Source: a virus
Reading direction: 5' to 3' (one strand)
Length of the DNA: 46,080 nucleotides
Virus record (IMG/VR): IMGVR_UViG_3300044632_000108
Span: 1-46,080 of that record
Numbering within the stretch: position 1 is the stretch's first letter; each line of letters opens with the position of its first letter. Both the position numbers and the translations under genes were made by a program. The notes beneath the pieces are model-generated. The model was not told the origin of the DNA. It made no database searches and worked only from the letters and a program-made list of their open reading frames with translations. Shown in pieces: positions 20-33,726 of the stretch.

Positions 20-2173
20 TTACCTCCTCATCCCAATCATTACATTTGCAATCTGTGAAACAATGATTACTGGGATAATGACTTCTTGGGCCTTTTCTCT
101 CTGATCGTCTGTCATATCCATACCTAATTCAGAGAAATTAGATAGGAGTTCTGTAACATCCACTTCAAATACTGCTCCAAGTGGGTCTGCTAAGAATGCT
201 TCTGTTTGTACTTCTGTTACTGCATCTGCTAATGTAAATGGCATTGGGGTTTCTCCTGCATCCCCTGCTCTTTCTGCGAACTCAACAAATGCTTCTGCAA
301 GTACTGGGTTAGACTTCATCTGCTCAGCAATCTGTGCAACTTCTGAAGCCTTAATACCAAGGTCTTCTGCAACCTCTTGCTTTGCTTCTTGTGTCAATGC
401 TTTAAGCGTTTGACTAACTGCTGTGATTTGTTCAGGGGAAAGAGTAACTAACTTATTATCCTTGCTTGTAAGGTTAGCAATAACTCCAGATAAATCTTCT
501 GAAGTTCCAGTTCCCTTTTTAGGAATGAGGGCTGCCAATACTTCATCTTTGATTTCTGCATCTGGTTCAATCCAAGGATTATCTTCTGGCTCTGGATTTG
601 GTCCAGGTTCTGGTGAAGGTTCTGGAGTAGGTTCTACAGTAGGTTCTACAACTGGCTCTTCAGTTGGTTCTGGATCTGGGGTAACTTCTGGGGTAGGTTC
701 AGGTGTAGGCTCTTCTGTAGGGTCTACTGTAGGCTCTGGTGATGGCTCTGAGGTAGGTTCAGGCGTTGGTTCATCTGTAGGCTCATCAGTTGGATCTGGC
801 GAAGGCTCTGGAGTTGGTTCATCTGTTGGCTCTTCGGTTGGTTCTGGAGAAGGTTCTGGTGTGGGTTCTGGGGTAGGCTGATTGGCTGCAGCATTGGCTG
901 CTGCCTGAGCAATAGCAGCATTAAGTTCTCTTTGTGCCTGCTCATAATAATAATCCCATGCATCACCAATAGCATTATTTAAATCAATTATTGACTGATT
1001 ATATATTTCTATTCTGCTATTCTTCAAGTCTAAAGCATCTTCTGTATCTGAAATGGCATCAAGATGTTCCTGTGTCTTGGTTTGCAAAACCTGATTCATT
1101 GATGACAGTGTTGTATTCTCAGAGTTGTATACGCTTAGTTTGTTATTGTATACTGCCAATTTATTGTTATAGTTTGTTTGTGCTATAGCCTGTGCTGCAA
1201 CAGCATCATTGTAAGCATTTATTTGTGATTGAGTTGGTCCTGATCCAGAAGAAAATGTATTAAGATTACAACTAAAATTTTGTCCCCATACTCTTGGATT
1301 TCCAGCATAGTCACAACCTGCACCAGTCCATCCTCCAGGGATTCCCCAGCCAAGAAGGTAGGATCCAGGGCCTCCTCCGTTGTACCACCATATTTCTACA
1401 TCTAAAGTTTTGTCTTCACTAACATCATATACGGGAGAGTAATCGCTCCAAGTTGTCCCTTGCTCTACCCAGTTATCAACAGCAAGTTGCCCGTCAACAT
1501 ACATTCTAAAACCATCATCCGTATATCCTGCAAAGTAGGTTTGTGTAAACCATGAAGGGACTGTTATCTGTCCAGTAAATTTAACTATAAAGTTTTCATA
1601 TCTATTTCCGCACACTGGAAGTTGCATAGAGTTTGAGTTCCAGGTGCCAGAACAAAGAACAGATCCTGGGGTAGCAACATTACCCTGCCTAACAAGAGTA
1701 TAAACAGTGTATGCCAAACCTGTTCCTCCAGCACTCTGCATATTAGATTGTGTGGTTTGAACATTAATATTGGCTATGCTGAGAGCATCCTGTGCATCGT
1801 TTCTTTCTTCAAGAGCATTGTTTTTATGTTCAAGGGCCAAGGCTACTGTGGCTGTCTGCCCATCCACATTTGATTGGGCAAGGTTCTTTGCTTCTAAGGC
1901 TGTGGCTTCTGCTTCTACTGCATCTTCGTGGGCATCATAGGCATCATCTTTAAGTTCCTTCGCATTTGTGGCTGAGGCAAACTTATTTTCTGCTATCTCT
2001 ATAAGATCTATAAATTCATCCTTGTAGCCAAGATCGTCTACGCTATCGTTAAGTTCCTGTATTTCTTGGGCTGCTACTGTGAGTGGATCATCAGAGTGGG
2101 CTTCCTGGGGGGCTATAAGTAGCCAGCCAAAGGCTAGAACTGTGGCTGTTACTATTCTTAGTAGTCGTTTAAT
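20..2173 (-). CDS. Exported PA14-domain protein with coiled coils and Pro-rich linker, AUU start
   Basis: The first canonical in-frame start is a GTG at 1867, but the frame stays open upstream and encodes a good Sec signal peptide (MKRLLRIVTATVLAFGWLLI, likely cut near AHS/DD). I place the start at ATT 2173-2171, which follows the purine-rich AAGGGGGAAAGG at Shine-Dalgarno distance; no ATG, GTG or TTG lies in frame between 2173 and 1867. The product is about 717 residues. After the signal come a charged helical region (about 30-145), a PA14-like beta domain (about 150-305, with GYTDDGFRMYVDG and aromatic strands), a second coiled coil, a Pro-Glu-Thr linker (about 432-532) and an alpha-helical C-terminal domain. 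It ends in a hydrophobic stretch (VIIPVIIVSQIANVMIGM) followed by RR, a possible membrane anchor. PA14 domains typically bind glycans. A surface role in the infected cell or at lysis is inferred; a virion role is also possible. Confidence 0.75.
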   Translation of the reverse strand: MKRLLRIVTATVLAFGWLLIAPQEAHSDDPLTVAAQEIQELNDSVDDLGYKDEFIDLIEIAENKFASATNAKELKDDAYDAHEDAVEAEATALEAKNLAQSNVDGQTATVALALEHKNNALEERNDAQDALSIANINVQTTQSNMQSAGGTGLAYTVYTLVRQGNVATPGSVLCSGTWNSNSMQLPVCGNRYENFIVKFTGQITVPSWFTQTYFAGYTDDGFRMYVDGQLAVDNWVEQGTTWSDYSPVYDVSEDKTLDVEIWWYNGGGPGSYLLGWGIPGGWTGAGCDYAGNPRVWGQNFSCNLNTFSSGSGPTQSQINAYNDAVAAQAIAQTNYNNKLAVYNNKLSVYNSENTTLSSMNQVLQTKTQEHLDAISDTEDALDLKNSRIEIYNQSIIDLNNAIGDAWDYYYEQAQRELNAAIAQAAANAAANQPTPEPTPEPSPEPTEEPTDEPTPEPSPDPTDEPTDEPTPEPTSEPSPEPTVDPTEEPTPEPTPEVTPDPEPTEEPVVEPTVEPTPEPSPEPGPNPEPEDNPWIEPDAEIKDEVLAALIPKKGTGTSEDLSGVIANLTSKDNKLVTLSPEQITAVSQTLKALTQEAKQEVAEDLGIKASEVAQIAEQMKSNPVLAEAFVEFAERAGDAGETPMPFTLADAVTEVQTEAFLADPLGAVFEVDVTELLSNFSELGMDMTDDQREKAQEVIIPVIIVSQIANVMIGMRR
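578..880 (-). repeat. Pro-Glu-Thr/Ser-Pro tandem repeat coding region
   Basis: About 100 residues of degenerate PTPEP, SPEP, TEEP and TDEP units form an extended acidic linker in the PA14-domain protein, between its coiled coil and its C-terminal helical domain. In DNA this appears as repeated short ggttctggt/gtaggttct units. Such linkers commonly span cell-wall layers or act as stalks; that role is inferred here. Confidence 0.85.
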
Positions 2174-24327: not shown

Positions 24328-24968
24328 TATACCTCTTCCAAACTTATTGATACATTCCAGTAATCAAAATTTGATCCTCGTTTTTCAACAGAATATGAAA
24401 AATCACTAATAAACATTTCTATTAACTGGTTATATTGTCCTAGGTGATCATATGGGTCTGGAGTTCCTTTAAATATTCCTTTTCTATCGTATGCAAGAAA
24501 TACCCAGAATGAGCCCTTGTGAGAGTCATACCATTCAAGCATATCTGCTCCACCTGCTCCGCCATCTGTTGTGTATGACTTAACTGATGATAGTCCAGTG
24601 GCAACATCAAAATGCGGTACATCTGCATGAGATCTTGATGGAATAAGTTCCCAACTTGTGCTTAACTGAAGTTTATCTGCAATGTGATATGATCGCATAC
24701 GACCATTGATCATTCTTTCCCGCTTTTCAATACGCTCTTGTGAAAACTCAATTGGCTGCCTATTGTCATCAGTAATTAACAAAAACTGATCTAGCAATGT
24801 GTCATCTTCGACAACTTCTGGGTCTACCCCAATTTCATAACCATATGGGATGTATAAGCCATCTTGCAGTGTTCCAGAATTTTCTGACCAAAGCATGCCG
24901 CTAGGTCTATTATATTTTTTACGACCCTGCATGTATACAACTCTAGGGTCTAACTCATCTTCTGCCAC
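24327..24968 (-). CDS. Distal tail protein-like minor tail protein
   Basis: The 213-residue protein lies directly after the tape measure gene (14-base overlap), the usual place of the distal tail (Dit) protein that caps the tube and anchors the hub. Sequence features: an Asp/Glu-rich start (DPEVVEDDTLLDQFLLI), a mixed alpha/beta middle (LQLSTSWELIPSR) and a last segment typical of tail tube-like folds (FISDFSYSVEKRGSNFDYWN then VSISLEEV), which resembles the last strands of tube/Dit domains. No signature motif is visible, so the name rests mostly on position. Confidence 0.72.
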   Translation of the reverse strand: MAEDELDPRVVYMQGRKKYNRPSGMLWSENSGTLQDGLYIPYGYEIGVDPEVVEDDTLLDQFLLITDDNRQPIEFSQERIEKRERMINGRMRSYHIADKLQLSTSWELIPSRSHADVPHFDVATGLSSVKSYTTDGGAGGADMLEWYDSHKGSFWVFLAYDRKGIFKGTPDPYDHLGQYNQLIEMFISDFSYSVEKRGSNFDYWNVSISLEEV

Positions 24969-27900
24969 TTATTGCCACCCCCCTAATTCTTCTGTCGTCA
25001 ACCTGCTTAATTGTTGCCATCACTGCTTGTGCAATATCATTTGGATTTGCATCTGTTCTAGCATTAACCGTTAATGCATATGTATTATTATACACTGATC
25101 CGCCAACTGATTCTCCATTATTTATTTTCTTCATATTGTCTAGACCGTAAGAATCGACAGCATACTTGCTCATAACGAACTCCCCTGGAGTTAGCATTGC
25201 TGGTACTGTGTCAGTACCTTTTGCAAAACCACCTATAGCAAATCGCATTGGGTTTATGAGGCCACCCTTTGACATATACATATGTCCTAGTCCTCCACCA
25301 CCTGGCTCATTTTGCGTTGTTGGAAGTTTGACTGTAGTTCCTGACCAAATCATATTTCCACCATTATACTTAGGGTCAGTTTTAAATTTAGGATTTAAGT
25401 CATACAATTCTGACAAAGACATATTATTGTCTTTTGCAATGTCCCATAGGGTGTCTCCTGGTTTTACAACATACTTTGTTGTGGTTGGTGTTGCTGTTGC
25501 TGTTGGTGTTGCTGGAATTATAGGATCATCAACCTTGTTGCCCTGCTTGATGCAGTCATTTCCTACTAGGTCATATCCATCAGGACAGACTGTTTTTGTT
25601 GGACCCACCTTAACACAGTCATTTCCTACCAAATTATATCCTTCAGGACAGACTGTCTTTTTTTCTGCTTCTTTTACGCAATTATTTCCAACCAGTGTGT
25701 GGCCATCAGGACAAATTATTTCTGTTGTTCCTTCTTTAACGCACTTGTCTCCGACCTGCTTAAATCCAGCAGGGCATACAATAACTGTTGCACCCTTCAT
25801 TACGCAATTAGTTCCATCAAACTCATAGCCTTCTGGACATGTCACTTTTTGTTCTGGAGTTATAACTGGTGTGTTTACCTTTTGCTCCTGGTATCCCTTG
25901 ATAAGACTTCCTTGAATATTTAAAGCATCTTGCATTGACTTAATAAATTGAGCACTTGCTATTCTTGCAAGGTCAACAGCATTTTTAATTGCTTCCCATT
26001 GCTCTCTAGTTTTTCCTAGAGTAGTTAATCCTGCTATTGCATTTTCTAATGCAAGTTCGTTTAGTCGTAAGGTTTCTCTATTAGGCTCAAGGCTTTTTGT
26101 CTCAATCTCATAAATTTGATCTTGCAATTCTTTAATTTTTGTTTCAATCTCAATTCTACTTCTTCCATCTTCTGATCTTAGTTGTGAAAGTTCATATTCT
26201 CTCGATTGCTCTAAAGCCTCTTTTTGTTTTGTAACAGCGTCTGCAGCCTGTTGTGCTCTCATTTCCTGGGCTGCACGAGCAGCAGCAGCAATGTCTCCAG
26301 AGGTTAGGGCTTCGGCAAGAGTTAACTGTCCCTTTTGTTGTTGAGATATTGAGGCATTTGCCTTTTCAACCTCGTCTAAAGCCTCAAGCCTTTTATCGTA
26401 TTGCTCATTAACTTTTTCTTCTTGATCTTCAATCTGCTTTAATCCAACTTCTTCTATTCTTATTTTTTCTTGTGCTAAGGCAATTTTTTCTTCCGCCTTC
26501 TTAATTTCATCATTTAGCGCTTTGTTGTCAACATTAAATCTAAGTCTAAGTGCTGTTTCTTTTACATCAAAAGATTCCATTGCATTGCTAAACCCAGTAT
26601 CAAATATTTCTTGCATTCCCTCTATAGTTAATAATTTAATTTTAAATTTGTTTTCTGCTTCTTTTTTTAAACTATTTAGCAAGTCCCTAAATACTTTGAG
26701 CGTGGCTGGCGTATCAATACCTATAGCCAATTGTCCCATCGCCTCTGCACTATTAATAATCAACTCTATTTCTTCTCTGGTAAATTGTCCTATTGCTTGA
26801 ATTAAGTTTGTATATGCTTTTCCTTCGTCTTTTACTTCTGATATTTTTTTGGTAATTGCTTCAGTAGCAGCCATTTGTTTTTGTGCTTTTGTTGCTTCTT
26901 TTGCTGCTTTTATAACTTTTTTAAGTTGTTTGTCTGACAATTTACTGTTAGCAATTGCTGCTGCAGTACCAGAGTCTGCAACCATGTCTAGGGCAATAGA
27001 ACCCTCTACTCCAGCAGCCTGAAGTCTTTCAAGCGCAACATTTTGATTGCCAATATTCTTAACCATTCTATCTTGTGTGCTAACAAAATCTCCAAGTGCG
27101 ATTGACTGAAGGGCATCACCAATACTTTTTGCACCATCTTTTAATGCTACAATTTCACCGTTTTTAAATTTAAACAATTTGTTTTTTTGTTTTTCAAACT
27201 CTGCTGGATCCATACCAACAATAAGATCAATCAGGTCTTCTCCTGCGCCTAATCTTCTCATATCGTTTTCAATACCGCTGAAAACTTCAATAGTTTTCTT
27301 TCCACCAAATATCTTGTTTAATGATTTAAAGGAAGCATCAAAACCTTTGGTAACCTTTATAGTATTTTTACGAACATCTCTTAGTTTCTTTAATAGGTCG
27401 TCTAGTGGAGAAGCGTCTGGACCCTTTTTATCTCCTGGAGTATTACCTGTAACTACAGCACCAGAATCTGATTTAACAATATCTGTTAACTGTGTGCTTT
27501 TAGCATTAGCAAAATCATCAAAAGTTTTTCCTTTGTTTCCATCCATCGCCAGCCAATTTTTATACTGTTCCTGCATTGCAGGGTCGCCTTCCATGCCGAA
27601 CATAACTCTTAGGTTTTGCATATACACTTTTTGTTGAAAATCATCTAGTCCTAAAAAATGCTCACTATTTTTACGAAGTGCTTCCATCTCTTCTTTGCCA
27701 AGAACTGTTGCAGCGATCTTTAAATCAACCTTGCCTTTGAGGGCCTCTATTTCTGCTAAATCTGTTTTTAAGGCTTCACGAGCATCTTCATCTGTGTTGT
27801 AATAGTTTAAAGCAACATCGAGATCTATGACCTGTCCTGATTGAGAAATTTTTTGGAATAGTTGAAGATCTTTTGCTGCCATATCTGGATCTTGTAATGA

Positions 27901-30900
27901 TAGTCGAGCAACAAAATCTGCAGATTGTTTTGGATCTTTGAACATTGCCACAACTCCCATTGCTTCATTTGCAAACTTTCCACCAAACTTTGTTATAATG
28001 GTAGCAACAGCCTCCATAGATGTTGCGTCCTTACCAAACTTATCAAATATTTCAATCATTTGTAATGGGTCTATTTGTCCACTTGCCATTTCCATTTTTA
28101 ATGTATACTTTATTTCATCTTTTAATTTAGAATCATTTATTCCTGATGTAGCAAGAGGAACGACATCTTCTAAATTGGTTCCTTTATATCTTTTTGTAAT
28201 TGCTTTGTCTACACCTGTCATAAGTGCTTTTCTAGTTGCTCCTTCGGATTCACTAAAATTTTTCTGAATATCTCCAACCAGCGCTGCATTTTGTTCAAGT
28301 AAGCGCACTCTATCTTTGGAATACTGTAGTGTAAGTTCATCTATTTTATTTTGATCGCCTTTGGCTTTAGCAATTTCCATCTCTTTTATATATTGCAATT
28401 CTACAGAGTCCATCATTTCTTGCTGCTGCTCAAGAGCCATTTTTTGCATAGCAACGCTTGCACCAGAGGCTTCTCCAATTCTTTTATTTCTATCTTTTTT
28501 AGACAAGAAGTACCCAACGCCTGCGCCAAGTGCTGCGCCAATAATAGTTCCTACAACTGGGACTGCACTACCAATAGTTGCTCCCATTGCTGCTGCGCCA
28601 GCAGCGCCTAATCCAGCAGCAACAAAACCTGTTCCAGCACCTGCTGCAGCACCTCCAAGAGTAAAGCCTCCAGTCTTAAGTTTGTCTGTGCCAGTAAACC
28701 CTCCAGCCTTTCTTGCTGCTTCTGTTGACAAGTTCATTTTTTCTCTTGTATCTTGCAGTATCTTTACTCTAACTCCTATTGGATCCTTAAGAATGTTTTC
28801 TCCGTTTGGTCCTAAGAATTCAATCAATTTTGCATTTACACTAATTCCAAAAGAATAGTCTCCAAGTTCTTGAGCAAGATTTCCTACAATGCTTCTCGCT
28901 TGTGCTGGGCTTAATGCTCCTGAAGCAACAGCAGTTGCCATCTGATTAAATACTTGGTCTTGTGCTACTTGCTTACTTCCAGATGATTTTATTGTTTCTC
29001 CAACATTTTTAGCCATAGCCTTTCCGTCTTCGCCTGCCATGAAAGATTCTCCAAATGTTGTTTTCCCTGTTTTTATTTGGAATGGAGAAAAGGCCTCTTT
29101 TCTTTTTCTGTCCATAGTTTCTCCTGCAGAAACTGTGTTTGCAAATTTTGAGAGATTTCTAATTGATTCAGATCCAGAACCCATTGCTTCTGTCAATTTC
29201 ATTGCTGCATCTTGTGCTTTATCAAATTGCATTCTTTGATATATGTATGCAGCAGTAATGGCACCAACACCTACAGCGAGTGCACCCATTCTGCTACTTA
29301 GCATTGGAAGAATCATTGCAAGCCCCATAAGTGGCATCATTAATTTTTGAAACATTTCTCCAACTGAACCTGGAATCATTGATCCAACCATTGCCACACC
29401 AGCAACACCCATTGCTGCACCACCCATGCCCATGCCAGTTTTTGGAGTGCCTGCTGCTTTTGCTGCTGCTTTTGCTTCTTTGCTTGCGTTGTACTTTGCC
29501 TTTAGTTTTTGTTGCATTCTTGCTGCTACACCTTGTTTTTTAACATTTTCAGTCATGTTATCTGTTACTACTTTTTGTGTAACTGCAACTTTTGCTGCTA
29601 CATTATTTAATGTTTTTCCATTTCCTTCTAGTTTTTTTAGTTGACGCCTTAAAGACTTTTGCTCAGCATCTATCGGTCCCGATCCATATAGTGCTGTTCT
29701 AGATGCTGCTGCTTTTGCTTGAGAGTGCTCTTTAGCAATTCTTTGTTTTACCTCTTGAGATGACATAGGGGCTTCTGAAAAACCAGGAATTTTTATACCT
29801 CTTGGTCCTTGACGAACTGATGGGGCTATAGATGCTGGAGCAATTCTTGTATCTTTTGGGCTATTAGATTTAAATTTACGATTGTTTGGCTCTGATTTTA
29901 TTTTTTTAGTTTTTTCGTTTTCATCTTCTGAAACTTCGTCAGGCTTTACCAAAATAGAACTATGTTTTTGATGTAAAGTTTTCCAGTCTACTTTTAAGCC
30001 TTCTTTAAGTCTTTCTAGCATCATAACATACTGAGGCCTTAAAGGATCGGTTAAAGGCATTTTTGCTACGTATGGCTCTGCTTTTGCAAGTTGTCTTTGA
30101 ATTTCTGATTTCATAGCACGATCATATTCGTCTGGGCTCATATTTAATGCAATGTCTTTTGTTGCATTAGCAAACCAATTTGGTGAATTTTTTGCCTGTT
30201 TTCCTGGAACGCCCTTTAAATTTTCTTCTGCCATTTCAGCAAGAGAAGGCATTTTTTCTGAAAGTGTTCTTACACCTGAAGCCTTATCAAATACCCCCGC
30301 AGTTCCAACATCTGTTAATACATTTCCTCCTAGGTTTCCTCTTTTAAGGTCTTTGTCTCCACGAAGGTTAGCGGACACCAATTGTCTAAAATATTGATCC
30401 TGAGTAAAACTTTTTGGAATTGAATCGGCATACTTTGGGTCAAACTTTGACTCTAAAACAATAATCTTTCTTTTTCCTGTTGGGTCTGTTGGATCTATCA
30501 TTGTGCTTATGGTCTGTTTTGGAGTGTCTAGTCCTTGAACACTTCTAGCAAAATCGGTTGCTCTTTTTTCTGCTATAGCATCTAGTTCGCTCATCATTGG
30601 CTTTACAAATACTTTTTGACCATTTGGTTTTTCATAAAGTCCACCAATTTCTCTTACAGCAAAACTTCTTCCAGAAGTTCCAGATATTTGTCTTCCAAAG
30701 TTTGTAGGTTTCTTTTGACCAGTTTTTGTCTTTGCTGCATCATCTGCTATTGCCTTTAATCTTGACTCTTGAGTCTGTGCTTTTTCCATGTTTTCTTGAA
30801 TTAACTCTGGTGCTGTTACTGGCCCTTTAGAAGTCTTTTGACTTATAACAGGCGTTGTTCCTGTTCCAAGTCTGTTCATGTTTACAACAGTTCCGTCATT

Positions 30901-33726
30901 TAGAGTGACAGTTGAAGACTTTGTTACAATCTTATCTGTTCTTCCTTCTCCTGTACCAAAGCCTTCTTTAATACTAAAGTCTTTTATAAATCCTTTATCT
31001 TTTGCATTTTGAAGAATTTTTCTGCTTTCTTCTGGAGTAGTACCAAGTCCTTTGCCCATGTTAAATCTGTAATCTGTTGCATAAAGTTGTTGTGCTTTTT
31101 GTAATCCCTTGTCGTCAGGACCTAACAGTTCTGGCACTCTGTTTCTAAACAGATCGTCCATAATTGAATCATTTATATATGGCTTAGTGCTCATTCCTAT
31201 TGCTTCACGGAATGCTCTATCCATTGATGCTGCTTGAGTTGCATTCATTCCAGAAGCCTTCCATTTTTCTGGACCACGGCGCTCCCACTCTTTTATAAAC
31301 TCTTCCTTAGATACTCCACTGGTTGTACTTGGCATTATTTTGTTCATCCACTCAGGGAAATCAAACATTAATCCGTGCTTGGTTGTTGTCATTGCTGGCA
31401 AACCTTGAGACTTAAAGATTTGCTCCATCGCAAGCAGTTTTGCTTTTTGATCTGCACTCATGTATGGGTTTGTTCTTATAATTTCTTGGATGTCTTTTGG
31501 AGTGCTCTTTCCACCTACGTGAGTTTTATTAACTACATTATTATCTTTTTTAATTTCTTCTGTACCTTTTTTAAATCCTGGCAACTTTTTACCTGAAACC
31601 ATGTGTGCAATAAATGGTTTGTTTGCTGGATCCTGTGCTGCATCTGCTGGAATAACTGCTTCTCCAGGAGAAGCAAGAATTGGGACAATATCTCCTGCAC
31701 CCTTTGGCCCTGGAATATTTGTAACACCATTAGAATATTTTTTGCTTTGAGGCATTCTTCCTTTTCCTACTGGTCCAGTAAACCCTACCTGTGCTGCGAT
31801 TGCGTTTCTGTATGCTAAAGCCAAAGCGTTTACTGCTGCTGTTTCTGAAGTAAATGTTTGTCGTAATCTTTGATGAACCTGATCTAAAGATGCTGCTACC
31901 GCAGAAGCCTCCATCTGTTCTTTAGTTAAATAATCTGTTTGTTGCCCTAAAATCTGTGTTGATGATCCCGCTCTATTAAAAGATGACTTCATTGCTGCAA
32001 ATAACTTAATTATATTTGCAACACCGTTAGCAAGCAAACCAAATGTCATAAGGGCTACTGGCCCAATTGCACCTAGGGCAACTGTAAGTATTGTAATAAA
32101 TCTTTTACTTCCGTCACCTAAGCCATTAAACTTTTCTAGAACTTTACCAACAAACTCAACAATGGGCGTCAAGGCTTTTAAAAACTGTTCTCCAACTGGA
32201 GCAAGAGAAACCTTTAGATCTTCAATTGTTTTCTTAAACCTGTAGGTAGTTGAATCTTCTATCCTTGCTAATTCTCGTTCAGACAAAATTGCTAATTCTT
32301 CTGTAGTTGCTTTTGTAAGTTGTAAAACTCGTGACGCTTGTGTTCCCTGTGCTGTTACGTTTTGAAATAGCGTTGATAATCTTGAGAACTGAAACTTTCC
32401 AAATAATTGCTCAATTGCTCTAGCACGATTAAGAGGATCTAAAGTATCTAGTGCTGCTGCAAAGTCTACTACAGTTCCTTTAACATCTCCAGCATTTGCT
32501 TCTACAATACCCTTGATATTTATGCCAAGTCCTGCAAGCATCTTGGATGCTTTTTCAGATGGATTAATTAAAGATGCAAGACCAGATTTAAGTGCGTTAG
32601 CGCCTTCTGATGCATTAATTCCACCTTCTTTCATAGCAGTCAGGAAGAATGCAAGGTCTTCTACATCTCCACCAAGTTGTTGAACAACTGGTCCAGCCTT
32701 TGGAATAGCAATTGTTAAATCTTCAATAGATACGACAGTCTGGTTTTCTACTGCGTTAAGGAAGTCAATTTTCTTTGCTAAATCTTCTGCAGCGACACCA
32801 AACGCATTGGTTACAGAAATAGTTGTCTCAAGGGCCTGCTCTTGCTCAACACCACCAAGAACAGCAAGGCGAGTTGCTTCCATTACTTGAGCCTTTAGTT
32901 CTTCCCCCATCTTACCCATTGCTGCAGCATTGGCAGCCATCTCCATAGTTTTTTCTACAGCAACGCCATACTTGGTATATTCTTTTGCAAGCAACTGGAT
33001 ATCTTTAACCATTGCATCGGTTTCTTCTTGTGTGGTAAACATTTCACCATAGACACGCTTAAACCTAATAGCCTGCTCTTCAAGTTTCATGAAGGTCTTA
33101 GCAGCGGTAGAGCCAAGCAACATTAATGGAACTGTAAAACCAACCATCAACTGACGACCAGCCCATTGAGTATTTTTACCAAAGTTTAAAAGATTGGTAG
33201 AGCCTTGCTTTAATAATTGATTTAGTAGTTGCTGTCTTTGTGCTGCCATTGCTGTTTGTGTACCCAGATTTTTCATGTCTAGGGTAAGCGGTCTTACTGC
33301 AATAGCCTGAAGAGCACCATTGGCTCCTCTGCCCATCTTAATATACTGGGTCTGTATATCTTTTACACGCTCTCGTGCAACCTTGTTTATTGTTTCAAAT
33401 TCAGACTTAAATAGTCTACCAAAAGTTTTTGTGGCTGCGCCAGTGTATCTAAAATACTCTCTAGATGTTAACTTGTTTCTTTCTAGAGCATTAGTAAAAT
33501 GTTCGGTACTTGTTGCTACCGTTCGCATCGATGCCTGGAATTGTCCAGTTGCATTTATGCTGTTCATCAAGTTTTGTGCTTGATTTGCTGCTACCGCTGA
33601 CGCTGCTGCGCCAGACTTCGACATTTGTGTGTGGAAGGCTGATATTTGACGCTGTAGAAGTTTTAAACTTGCTAGAGCATCCGACGTATCAATATTTACA
33701 TGAATATTGGATTGAACATCAGCCAT
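24955..33726 (-). CDS. Tape measure protein with LysM and cysteine repeats
   Basis: The 2,923-residue protein sets tail length and is ejected with the DNA. The first about 600 residues hold the conserved tape-measure core (YGEMFTTQEETDAMVKDIQL, AANAAAMGKMGEEL, PVVQQLGGDVEDLAFFLTAM) and a hydrophobic segment near 545-575. Next come a VPILASPGEAVIP motif (about 681-693), an insert with a possible kinase-like domain (about 1010-1265), hydrophobic segments (1430-1495), a glycine-zipper segment (about 1690-1740), coiled coils (2400-2550), five 21-residue Cys repeats (2630-2731), a LysM (2749-2802, KYVVKPGDTLWDIAKDN) and a second VPAMLTPGEFVM motif near 2841. LysM binds peptidoglycan, fitting cell-wall crossing. 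The size predicts a very long tail, although the inserts may not all contribute to length. Confidence 0.95.
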   Translation of the reverse strand: MADVQSNIHVNIDTSDALASLKLLQRQISAFHTQMSKSGAAASAVAANQAQNLMNSINATGQFQASMRTVATSTEHFTNALERNKLTSREYFRYTGAATKTFGRLFKSEFETINKVARERVKDIQTQYIKMGRGANGALQAIAVRPLTLDMKNLGTQTAMAAQRQQLLNQLLKQGSTNLLNFGKNTQWAGRQLMVGFTVPLMLLGSTAAKTFMKLEEQAIRFKRVYGEMFTTQEETDAMVKDIQLLAKEYTKYGVAVEKTMEMAANAAAMGKMGEELKAQVMEATRLAVLGGVEQEQALETTISVTNAFGVAAEDLAKKIDFLNAVENQTVVSIEDLTIAIPKAGPVVQQLGGDVEDLAFFLTAMKEGGINASEGANALKSGLASLINPSEKASKMLAGLGINIKGIVEANAGDVKGTVVDFAAALDTLDPLNRARAIEQLFGKFQFSRLSTLFQNVTAQGTQASRVLQLTKATTEELAILSERELARIEDSTTYRFKKTIEDLKVSLAPVGEQFLKALTPIVEFVGKVLEKFNGLGDGSKRFITILTVALGAIGPVALMTFGLLANGVANIIKLFAAMKSSFNRAGSSTQILGQQTDYLTKEQMEASAVAASLDQVHQRLRQTFTSETAAVNALALAYRNAIAAQVGFTGPVGKGRMPQSKKYSNGVTNIPGPKGAGDIVPILASPGEAVIPADAAQDPANKPFIAHMVSGKKLPGFKKGTEEIKKDNNVVNKTHVGGKSTPKDIQEIIRTNPYMSADQKAKLLAMEQIFKSQGLPAMTTTKHGLMFDFPEWMNKIMPSTTSGVSKEEFIKEWERRGPEKWKASGMNATQAASMDRAFREAIGMSTKPYINDSIMDDLFRNRVPELLGPDDKGLQKAQQLYATDYRFNMGKGLGTTPEESRKILQNAKDKGFIKDFSIKEGFGTGEGRTDKIVTKSSTVTLNDGTVVNMNRLGTGTTPVISQKTSKGPVTAPELIQENMEKAQTQESRLKAIADDAAKTKTGQKKPTNFGRQISGTSGRSFAVREIGGLYEKPNGQKVFVKPMMSELDAIAEKRATDFARSVQGLDTPKQTISTMIDPTDPTGKRKIIVLESKFDPKYADSIPKSFTQDQYFRQLVSANLRGDKDLKRGNLGGNVLTDVGTAGVFDKASGVRTLSEKMPSLAEMAEENLKGVPGKQAKNSPNWFANATKDIALNMSPDEYDRAMKSEIQRQLAKAEPYVAKMPLTDPLRPQYVMMLERLKEGLKVDWKTLHQKHSSILVKPDEVSEDENEKTKKIKSEPNNRKFKSNSPKDTRIAPASIAPSVRQGPRGIKIPGFSEAPMSSQEVKQRIAKEHSQAKAAASRTALYGSGPIDAEQKSLRRQLKKLEGNGKTLNNVAAKVAVTQKVVTDNMTENVKKQGVAARMQQKLKAKYNASKEAKAAAKAAGTPKTGMGMGGAAMGVAGVAMVGSMIPGSVGEMFQKLMMPLMGLAMILPMLSSRMGALAVGVGAITAAYIYQRMQFDKAQDAAMKLTEAMGSGSESIRNLSKFANTVSAGETMDRKRKEAFSPFQIKTGKTTFGESFMAGEDGKAMAKNVGETIKSSGSKQVAQDQVFNQMATAVASGALSPAQARSIVGNLAQELGDYSFGISVNAKLIEFLGPNGENILKDPIGVRVKILQDTREKMNLSTEAARKAGGFTGTDKLKTGGFTLGGAAAGAGTGFVAAGLGAAGAAAMGATIGSAVPVVGTIIGAALGAGVGYFLSKKDRNKRIGEASGASVAMQKMALEQQQEMMDSVELQYIKEMEIAKAKGDQNKIDELTLQYSKDRVRLLEQNAALVGDIQKNFSESEGATRKALMTGVDKAITKRYKGTNLEDVVPLATSGINDSKLKDEIKYTLKMEMASGQIDPLQMIEIFDKFGKDATSMEAVATIITKFGGKFANEAMGVVAMFKDPKQSADFVARLSLQDPDMAAKDLQLFQKISQSGQVIDLDVALNYYNTDEDAREALKTDLAEIEALKGKVDLKIAATVLGKEEMEALRKNSEHFLGLDDFQQKVYMQNLRVMFGMEGDPAMQEQYKNWLAMDGNKGKTFDDFANAKSTQLTDIVKSDSGAVVTGNTPGDKKGPDASPLDDLLKKLRDVRKNTIKVTKGFDASFKSLNKIFGGKKTIEVFSGIENDMRRLGAGEDLIDLIVGMDPAEFEKQKNKLFKFKNGEIVALKDGAKSIGDALQSIALGDFVSTQDRMVKNIGNQNVALERLQAAGVEGSIALDMVADSGTAAAIANSKLSDKQLKKVIKAAKEATKAQKQMAATEAITKKISEVKDEGKAYTNLIQAIGQFTREEIELIINSAEAMGQLAIGIDTPATLKVFRDLLNSLKKEAENKFKIKLLTIEGMQEIFDTGFSNAMESFDVKETALRLRFNVDNKALNDEIKKAEEKIALAQEKIRIEEVGLKQIEDQEEKVNEQYDKRLEALDEVEKANASISQQQKGQLTLAEALTSGDIAAAARAAQEMRAQQAADAVTKQKEALEQSREYELSQLRSEDGRSRIEIETKIKELQDQIYEIETKSLEPNRETLRLNELALENAIAGLTTLGKTREQWEAIKNAVDLARIASAQFIKSMQDALNIQGSLIKGYQEQKVNTPVITPEQKVTCPEGYEFDGTNCVMKGATVIVCPAGFKQVGDKCVKEGTTEIICPDGHTLVGNNCVKEAEKKTVCPEGYNLVGNDCVKVGPTKTVCPDGYDLVGNDCIKQGNKVDDPIIPATPTATATPTTTKYVVKPGDTLWDIAKDNNMSLSELYDLNPKFKTDPKYNGGNMIWSGTTVKLPTTQNEPGGGGLGHMYMSKGGLINPMRFAIGGFAKGTDTVPAMLTPGEFVMSKYAVDSYGLDNMKKINNGESVGGSVYNNTYALTVNARTDANPNDIAQAVMATIKQVDDRRIRGVAISGRR
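25321..25482 (-). other. LysM domain within the tape measure protein
   Basis: Residues about 2749-2802 read KYVVKPGDTLWDIAKDNNMS and end in SGTTVKLP, a complete LysM with the YxVxxGDTLWxIA signature and the closing G-x-x-(I/V)-x-(I/L)-P strand. LysM binds N-acetylglucosamine-containing glycans such as peptidoglycan. It follows a Thr/Pro linker and precedes the C-terminal tape-measure motif. Confidence 0.92.
25534..25839 (-). repeat. Five 21-residue cysteine repeats in the tape measure protein
   Basis: Five units start at C2630, C2651, C2672, C2693 and C2714, an exact 21-residue (63-nt) period. Each has the form CPxGYxxxGxxCVK, with two cysteines 11 residues apart. Nucleotide identity between neighbouring units is high (ccatcaggacagactg and tagtcatttcctac-like blocks recur), so they arose by tandem duplication. 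The paired cysteines suggest disulfides or a small metal-binding fold; this is unusual in a phage tape measure protein. Confidence 0.93.

Follow-up and report, generated by a model that had tools for sequence, protein, structure and literature searches.

A predicted kinase-like domain in an exchangeable slot of the tape measure proteins of uncultured phages

The tape measure gene and its surroundings

The window analysed here is the 46,080-base IMG/VR virus record IMGVR_UViG_3300044632_000108, taken at its full length; its G+C content is 38%. An open reading frame at 24955..33726 (-) encodes a tape measure protein (TMP) of 2923 aa, with a Pfam PhageMin_Tail match of 1.9e-24 and matches to several PHROG tape-measure families, the N-terminal family match being present in this ORF with both the Pfam and the PHROG profiles. 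Two parts of the protein align with TMPs that carry no kinase-like domain: a conserved N-terminal part (aa 1-720; 31567..33726 (-)), which is 68-82% identical to its kinase-free counterparts, and a conserved helical/hydrophobic part (aa 1333-2653; 25768..29730 (-)). The second of these follows the cassette that is the subject of this report.

Towards the C-terminus of the TMP, a LysM domain (25321-25473 (-)) is preceded by repeated CPEGYxLVGNDCVK units. A second PGE-type motif near the C-terminus, DTVPAMLTPGEFVM (aa 2839-2852; window about 25150-25190 (-)), is conserved across many TMP relatives and could mark a processing or binding site. Elsewhere in the window, a 615-aa protein (20-1867 (-)) combines a PA14 domain with PT-rich disordered repeats.

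The closest cultured relatives of both the TMP N-terminus (about 31% identity) and the DNA polymerase III of the window (54%) are Streptomyces phages, and the host is therefore likely to be an actinobacterium. The phage group is presumably a freshwater one, from the sampling sites typical of such IMG/VR records. The TMP of Streptomyces phage LilMartin has only the N-terminal part in common with that of the window (blastp), and the kinase-like domain was not detected when it was looked for in this cultured TMP.

Residue conservation and predicted fold of the domain

Residues 1004-1268 of the TMP (29923..30717 (-)) form a discrete domain, whose ordered core ends at about aa 1258. The initial annotation had set residues of about 1010-1265 apart from the tape-measure coiled coil and had quoted three motif stretches from them as kinase-like; all three were found in frame, within the interval of the TMP ORF assigned to them.

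Conservation was followed in 165 distinct aligned sequences and in a 104-sequence alignment filtered at 92% identity, for which query numbering + 1003 gives TMP numbering. K1042, R1122, D1124, D1126, N1131 and D1139 occur in 165/165 of the distinct sequences with a residue at the position concerned. K1042 (30601..30603 (-)), in a VKP motif at the end of predicted beta3, lies on model strand E35-40, in keeping with its proposed role as an ATP-binding Lys. The proposed Glu helix likewise has a counterpart, as E1053 (30568..30570 (-)), the predicted helix C Glu, falls in model helix H44-59; it is present in 161 of the 165 aligned distinct sequences and differs in four. The predicted catalytic loop, D1124-K-D1126-L-x3-N1131 (30334..30357 (-)), comes directly after model helix H106-119, with its D-x4-N spacing running from D1126, and is followed by D1139 of a D-V-G motif (30310..30312 (-)), the predicted metal-binding Asp, placed after a short second hairpin strand. 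D1126, N1131 and D1139, which had been read as a catalytic loop plus metal Asp (D...N...D), thus have a kinase-like placement in the model. G1019-x-S1021 (30664..30672 (-)), in the turn preceding the second strand, is found in 164/164 aligned residues and is possibly the equivalent of a phosphate loop. In the 104-sequence alignment, G16, S18, K39, R119, D121, D123, N128 and D136 (query numbering) are invariant.

No family member that had lost the catalytic set was found among the 165 aligned distinct sequences. The initial annotation had allowed for a kinase or a pseudokinase; the kinase-like character stands, with catalytic residues intact, and the retention of all of them speaks against a pseudokinase. 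The pattern formed by these residues is more than chance would produce. The dN/dS between the domain of the window and six homologues was 0.15-0.28, and the median for 69 close pairs was 0.12; these values are well below 1, indicating purifying selection on the domain.

An AlphaFold2 model of the domain, built from the 104-sequence alignment, reached a pLDDT of 92.3 and a pTM of 0.90. The model comprises N-lobe strands and helix C, a hinge, helix E, the catalytic loop, a beta7-beta8 hairpin with its Asp, and a helical C-lobe. In query numbering, strands 9-13, 26-29 and 35-40 lead into helix 44-59, strands 68-74 and 84-91 and helix 106-119, after which come the catalytic loop, very short strands at 128-129 and 133-134, D136, and helices within 159-253. 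The C-lobe consists of six helices predicted past the DVG motif, mostly at pLDDT >90. The order of elements is that of a kinase: beta3 bears K39 and helix C bears E50, helix E is followed by D123-x4-N128, and beta8 by D136. The beta7-beta8 hairpin is unusually short.

All 50 of the PDB matches listed by Foldseek were kinases, with TM scores of only 0.19-0.40; the highest (0.40) was to CtkA, a HipA-like kinase. Superpositions were weak (TM <=0.40 in PDB and <=0.49 in BFVD, with rmsd often >10 Å), and the fold claim therefore rests on topology, motif placement and kinase-only matches combined. A single-sequence AF2 model (pLDDT 46.5) and its fold search were uninformative and were kept as a control only. 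Although the sequence was the same, this low-confidence model matched unrelated folds with no kinase enrichment, indicating that the search is not biased towards kinases for this query. On the modelling, we regard a kinase fold for aa 1004-1268 as well supported; of the checks that the initial annotation had proposed, the predicted structure with its kinase-only list of PDB matches and the invariance of K1042, D1126, N1131 and D1139 in homologues both point in this direction.

Searches of Pfam, NCBIfam, PHROG and PDB sequences with the domain gave no convincing match. HipA_C was absent among the matches of 39 family members at E up to 5, and nothing in the window matched PI3_PI4_kinase (PF00454) at E up to 10. 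Several candidates were rejected: Pfam SMP_C2CD2L, which was below the cut-off and confined to the C-terminal helix; weak Pfam, NCBIfam and PHROG matches of single family members, which were sporadic; and PDB profile matches, which were coiled-coil or designed helical proteins aligned to the C-terminal helices. In profile comparisons (hhalign), the score with HipA was not above shuffles, and the comparison with HSTV-2 gp16 was weak, its register not consistent. The comparison with the Onyinye gp16 family scored 26.6, above 150/150 column shuffles, and was in register through 'vY..pdG..vfVK...GL.tP'. The suggested HipA/PI4K type is the best subfamily lead, and the domain probably works as kinases of that type do, but no HipA_C or PI3_PI4_kinase threshold was reached, and we do not claim membership of the HipA or PI4K family because the HipA profile comparison did not exceed shuffles.

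Distribution and exchange of the cassette

The domain recurs in hundreds of IMG/VR contigs, confirmed by tblastn with several queries; a single IMG/VR scan confirmed at least 412 relatives by tblastn. E-values for related loci are relative to the candidate stretches. No relative was found in an annotated phage collection searched with the domain and a consensus-like sequence, or in a genome contig collection searched with the domain. Every kinase-bearing ORF with a visible N-terminus (236/236) is a TMP, and a free-standing copy of the domain was never encountered in the loci examined. In one relative (L350) the kinase is split across two reading frames within the TMP gene, a possible frameshift that is either real or an assembly error.

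Presence of the kinase varies among TMPs with a related N-terminus. Among the best 80 of >589 matches, 10 loci were truncated or undecidable; of the 70 assessable TMPs, 36 have the kinase domain and 34 do not. Alignments to the kinase-free TMPs start at aa 1 and break off at about 712-732 (at 828 in some); they pick up again at 1333-1455, and the stretch between is hypervariable among relatives. The boundary of this slot is marked by a seam motif of the 'PGPKGAGDxVPAMLSPGEAVIPA' type, in the window PGPKGAGDIVPILASPGEAVIPA (aa 672-694; 31645..31713 (-)), which occurs once or twice per relative and sometimes brackets the kinase. In L411, for example, seams at 679 and 1030 bracket a kinase at 749-1010, and in L230 seams at 1186 and 1540 bracket one at 1258-1513. 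Identity in the N-terminus is decoupled from identity in the kinase (92.8% with 51.8% in one comparison, 92.3% with 82.3% in another), as expected under cassette exchange. The domain resides exclusively in TMPs in these loci, is present in some close relatives and absent from others, and is swapped as a cassette.

The slot also holds other domains. A second mobile domain of the window (aa 736-985; 30772..31521 (-)) was found in 19 related TMPs, 13 with the kinase and 6 without it. In kinase-free TMPs (L409, L418, L416, L403/L404 and L410), an ART-like cassette lies in the same slot at TMP aa about 736-1006. The cassette of L403 has a DUF3626 match of 1.1e-4, below the cut-off, and has relatives in six TMPs, 0/6 of them with the kinase; we take DUF3626-type domains to be ADP-ribosyltransferases (ARTs). 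In the set of related TMPs compared, no protein has both the kinase and the ART-like cassette, and the two take up the same region. A further cassette that recurs, marked by an ASHI...W..NLIPDLGYINGY motif, lies at TMP aa about 776-1015 in L405, L414 and relatives, and one copy of it stands alongside a kinase (L440).

Proposed role and known systems

The reading that we favour, with a probability of roughly 0.6, is that aa 1004-1268 constitute a catalytically intact, highly divergent HipA/PI4-kinase-type effector cassette of the TMP, which would be injected through the tail and phosphorylate a host component. ATP-dependent phosphotransfer by the domain is likely. We infer tail delivery and action on a host component because virion-delivered ARTs and polyvalent proteins offer an analogy (PMC5512222, PMC9503650). 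In this view several effector cassettes can replace one another in the TMP, after its conserved N-terminal part and ahead of its hydrophobic middle; the kinase would be one of them, and would be assembled into the virion as part of that protein. It may exit the tail together with the DNA or just ahead of it, fold or refold within the host, and there phosphorylate a component in favour of infection, most likely a translation, transcription or defence protein. An intact kinase-shaped domain suggests that these phages inject a putative protein-modifying enzyme along with their DNA. A broader proposal, to which we give somewhat less than even odds, is that the TMPs of a large group of uncultured, presumably freshwater phages are modular vehicles, with a slot at repeated seams that would be loaded by recombination with alternative enzymes, among them a new kinase family and ART-like domains, and emptied into the host by the tail.

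A kinase that lies inside the TMP in every case, with no free-standing copy in the loci examined, might instead serve the virion, phosphorylating the tail or the TMP during assembly or DNA ejection, or acting as a structural plug. This is unlikely, as 34 close relatives (among the best 80 of >589 matches) assemble a kinase-free TMP, the N-terminus and the kinase diverge independently (92.8% versus 51.8% identity), and an unrelated ART-like cassette fills the same slot elsewhere, which is hard to square with a needed role in assembly. The domain could also be kinase-shaped and yet not a phosphotransferase, whether as a pseudokinase, an enzyme of AMPylation/glutamylation-type transfer or a nucleotide-binding immunity decoy. 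Kinase folds performing other chemistries exist, and both the extreme divergence of the family and its very short beta7-beta8 hairpin would fit such a role; however, the catalytic residues are all invariant, unlike those of typical pseudokinases, and we consider this improbable.

More improbable still is a PI4K-like kinase of lipids or small molecules, acting for instance on the phosphatidylinositol of an actinobacterial membrane during tail penetration. Actinobacterial membranes do contain phosphatidylinositol, the cultured phages that come closest in TMP and polymerase infect Actinobacteria, and a structural neighbour, HSTV-2 gp16, has a sub-threshold PI3_PI4_kinase match (1.5e-5) and relatives annotated as phosphatidylinositol kinase. 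The annotated function of the haloviral protein is nevertheless putative, the window has no PI3_PI4_kinase family match, and the C-lobe is small with no evident lipid-binding element. The explanation that we find hardest to credit is that there is no kinase fold at all and that the motifs are coincidental in a new phage domain. The poor superposition scores and absent sequence-family match speak for it, but it has to contend with a high-confidence model, kinase-only PDB matches among those listed, structurally well-placed motif residues, and a search that returned unrelated folds for the low-confidence model and so was unbiased towards kinases.

Tape measure proteins are usually viewed as rulers and membrane conduits. 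If the favoured reading of an injected effector cassette is true, a conserved, catalytically intact kinase-like domain at this site, where close relatives may have an ART-like domain in its stead, makes the TMP an effector delivery platform. The family is concrete and testable, with hundreds of contigs and no existing family model found in the searches made; it bears on which cargo other than DNA the tails of siphophages deliver, and offers a lead toward host targets in what are presumably freshwater bacteria. In the literature searched, most subscription journals excepted, no kinase domain was reported in a tape measure protein; papers pairing 'tape measure protein' with 'kinase domain' concerned unrelated genes where checked.

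The domain shares with HipA and CtkA a sequence of elements, namely a small Gly/Ser turn, the beta3 Lys, the helix C Glu, 'GL.xP', the D-x4-N loop and a later metal Asp, but differs in having no HipA_C match and a shorter beta7-beta8 hairpin; unlike HipA toxins, it has no HipB antitoxin pairing and is embedded in the TMP ORF. Its top viral structural matches (Foldseek) were to kinase-like domains in phage proteins of the head and tail region: Onyinye gp16, a portal fusion, an ART protein and HSTV-2 gp16. Onyinye gp16, encoded two genes ahead of the terminase, is annotated as an ADP-ribosyltransferase and has a C-terminal ART domain, and its aa 264-331 match HipA_C and PI3_PI4_kinase weakly; its homologues in mycobacterial prophages are annotated as minor capsid/ART fusions. 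These phage proteins and HSTV-2 gp16 resemble the TMP domain in the Lys, helix C, the GL.TP segment and an N/D-x4-N loop, and lie among head/packaging genes or are fused to head proteins. Whereas the Onyinye gp16/HSTV-2-type domains belong to head or neck-region proteins and have a DPH/DRH catalytic loop and a longer hairpin, the TMP family resides in the tail tape measure and has an R-x-D-K-D-L-x3-N loop; the N1131-D1139 spacing is 8 residues, compared with 13 in HSTV-2 gp16.

Polyvalent proteins (Iyer et al. 2017; PMC5512222) also have a kinase inside a large multidomain phage protein, with co-delivery with DNA and cassette-like recombination proposed; tape measure proteins are unmentioned there. 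Their kinases are without a C-terminal subdomain, and His and Asp are separated by an insert (PMC5512222), whereas the TMP domain has a helical C-lobe and no His. Virion MuF/portal-fused ARTs and phage T4 Alt are packaged enzymes delivered as infection starts (PMC9503650). The likeness here is that ART-like cassettes fill the same slot in related TMPs; these virion enzymes differ from the TMP kinase in fold and chemistry, and are delivered from the head, not the tail. As a modular vehicle, the TMP would resemble polymorphic toxins and polyvalent proteins, except that its cargo would enter the host by way of the tail and not from the head.
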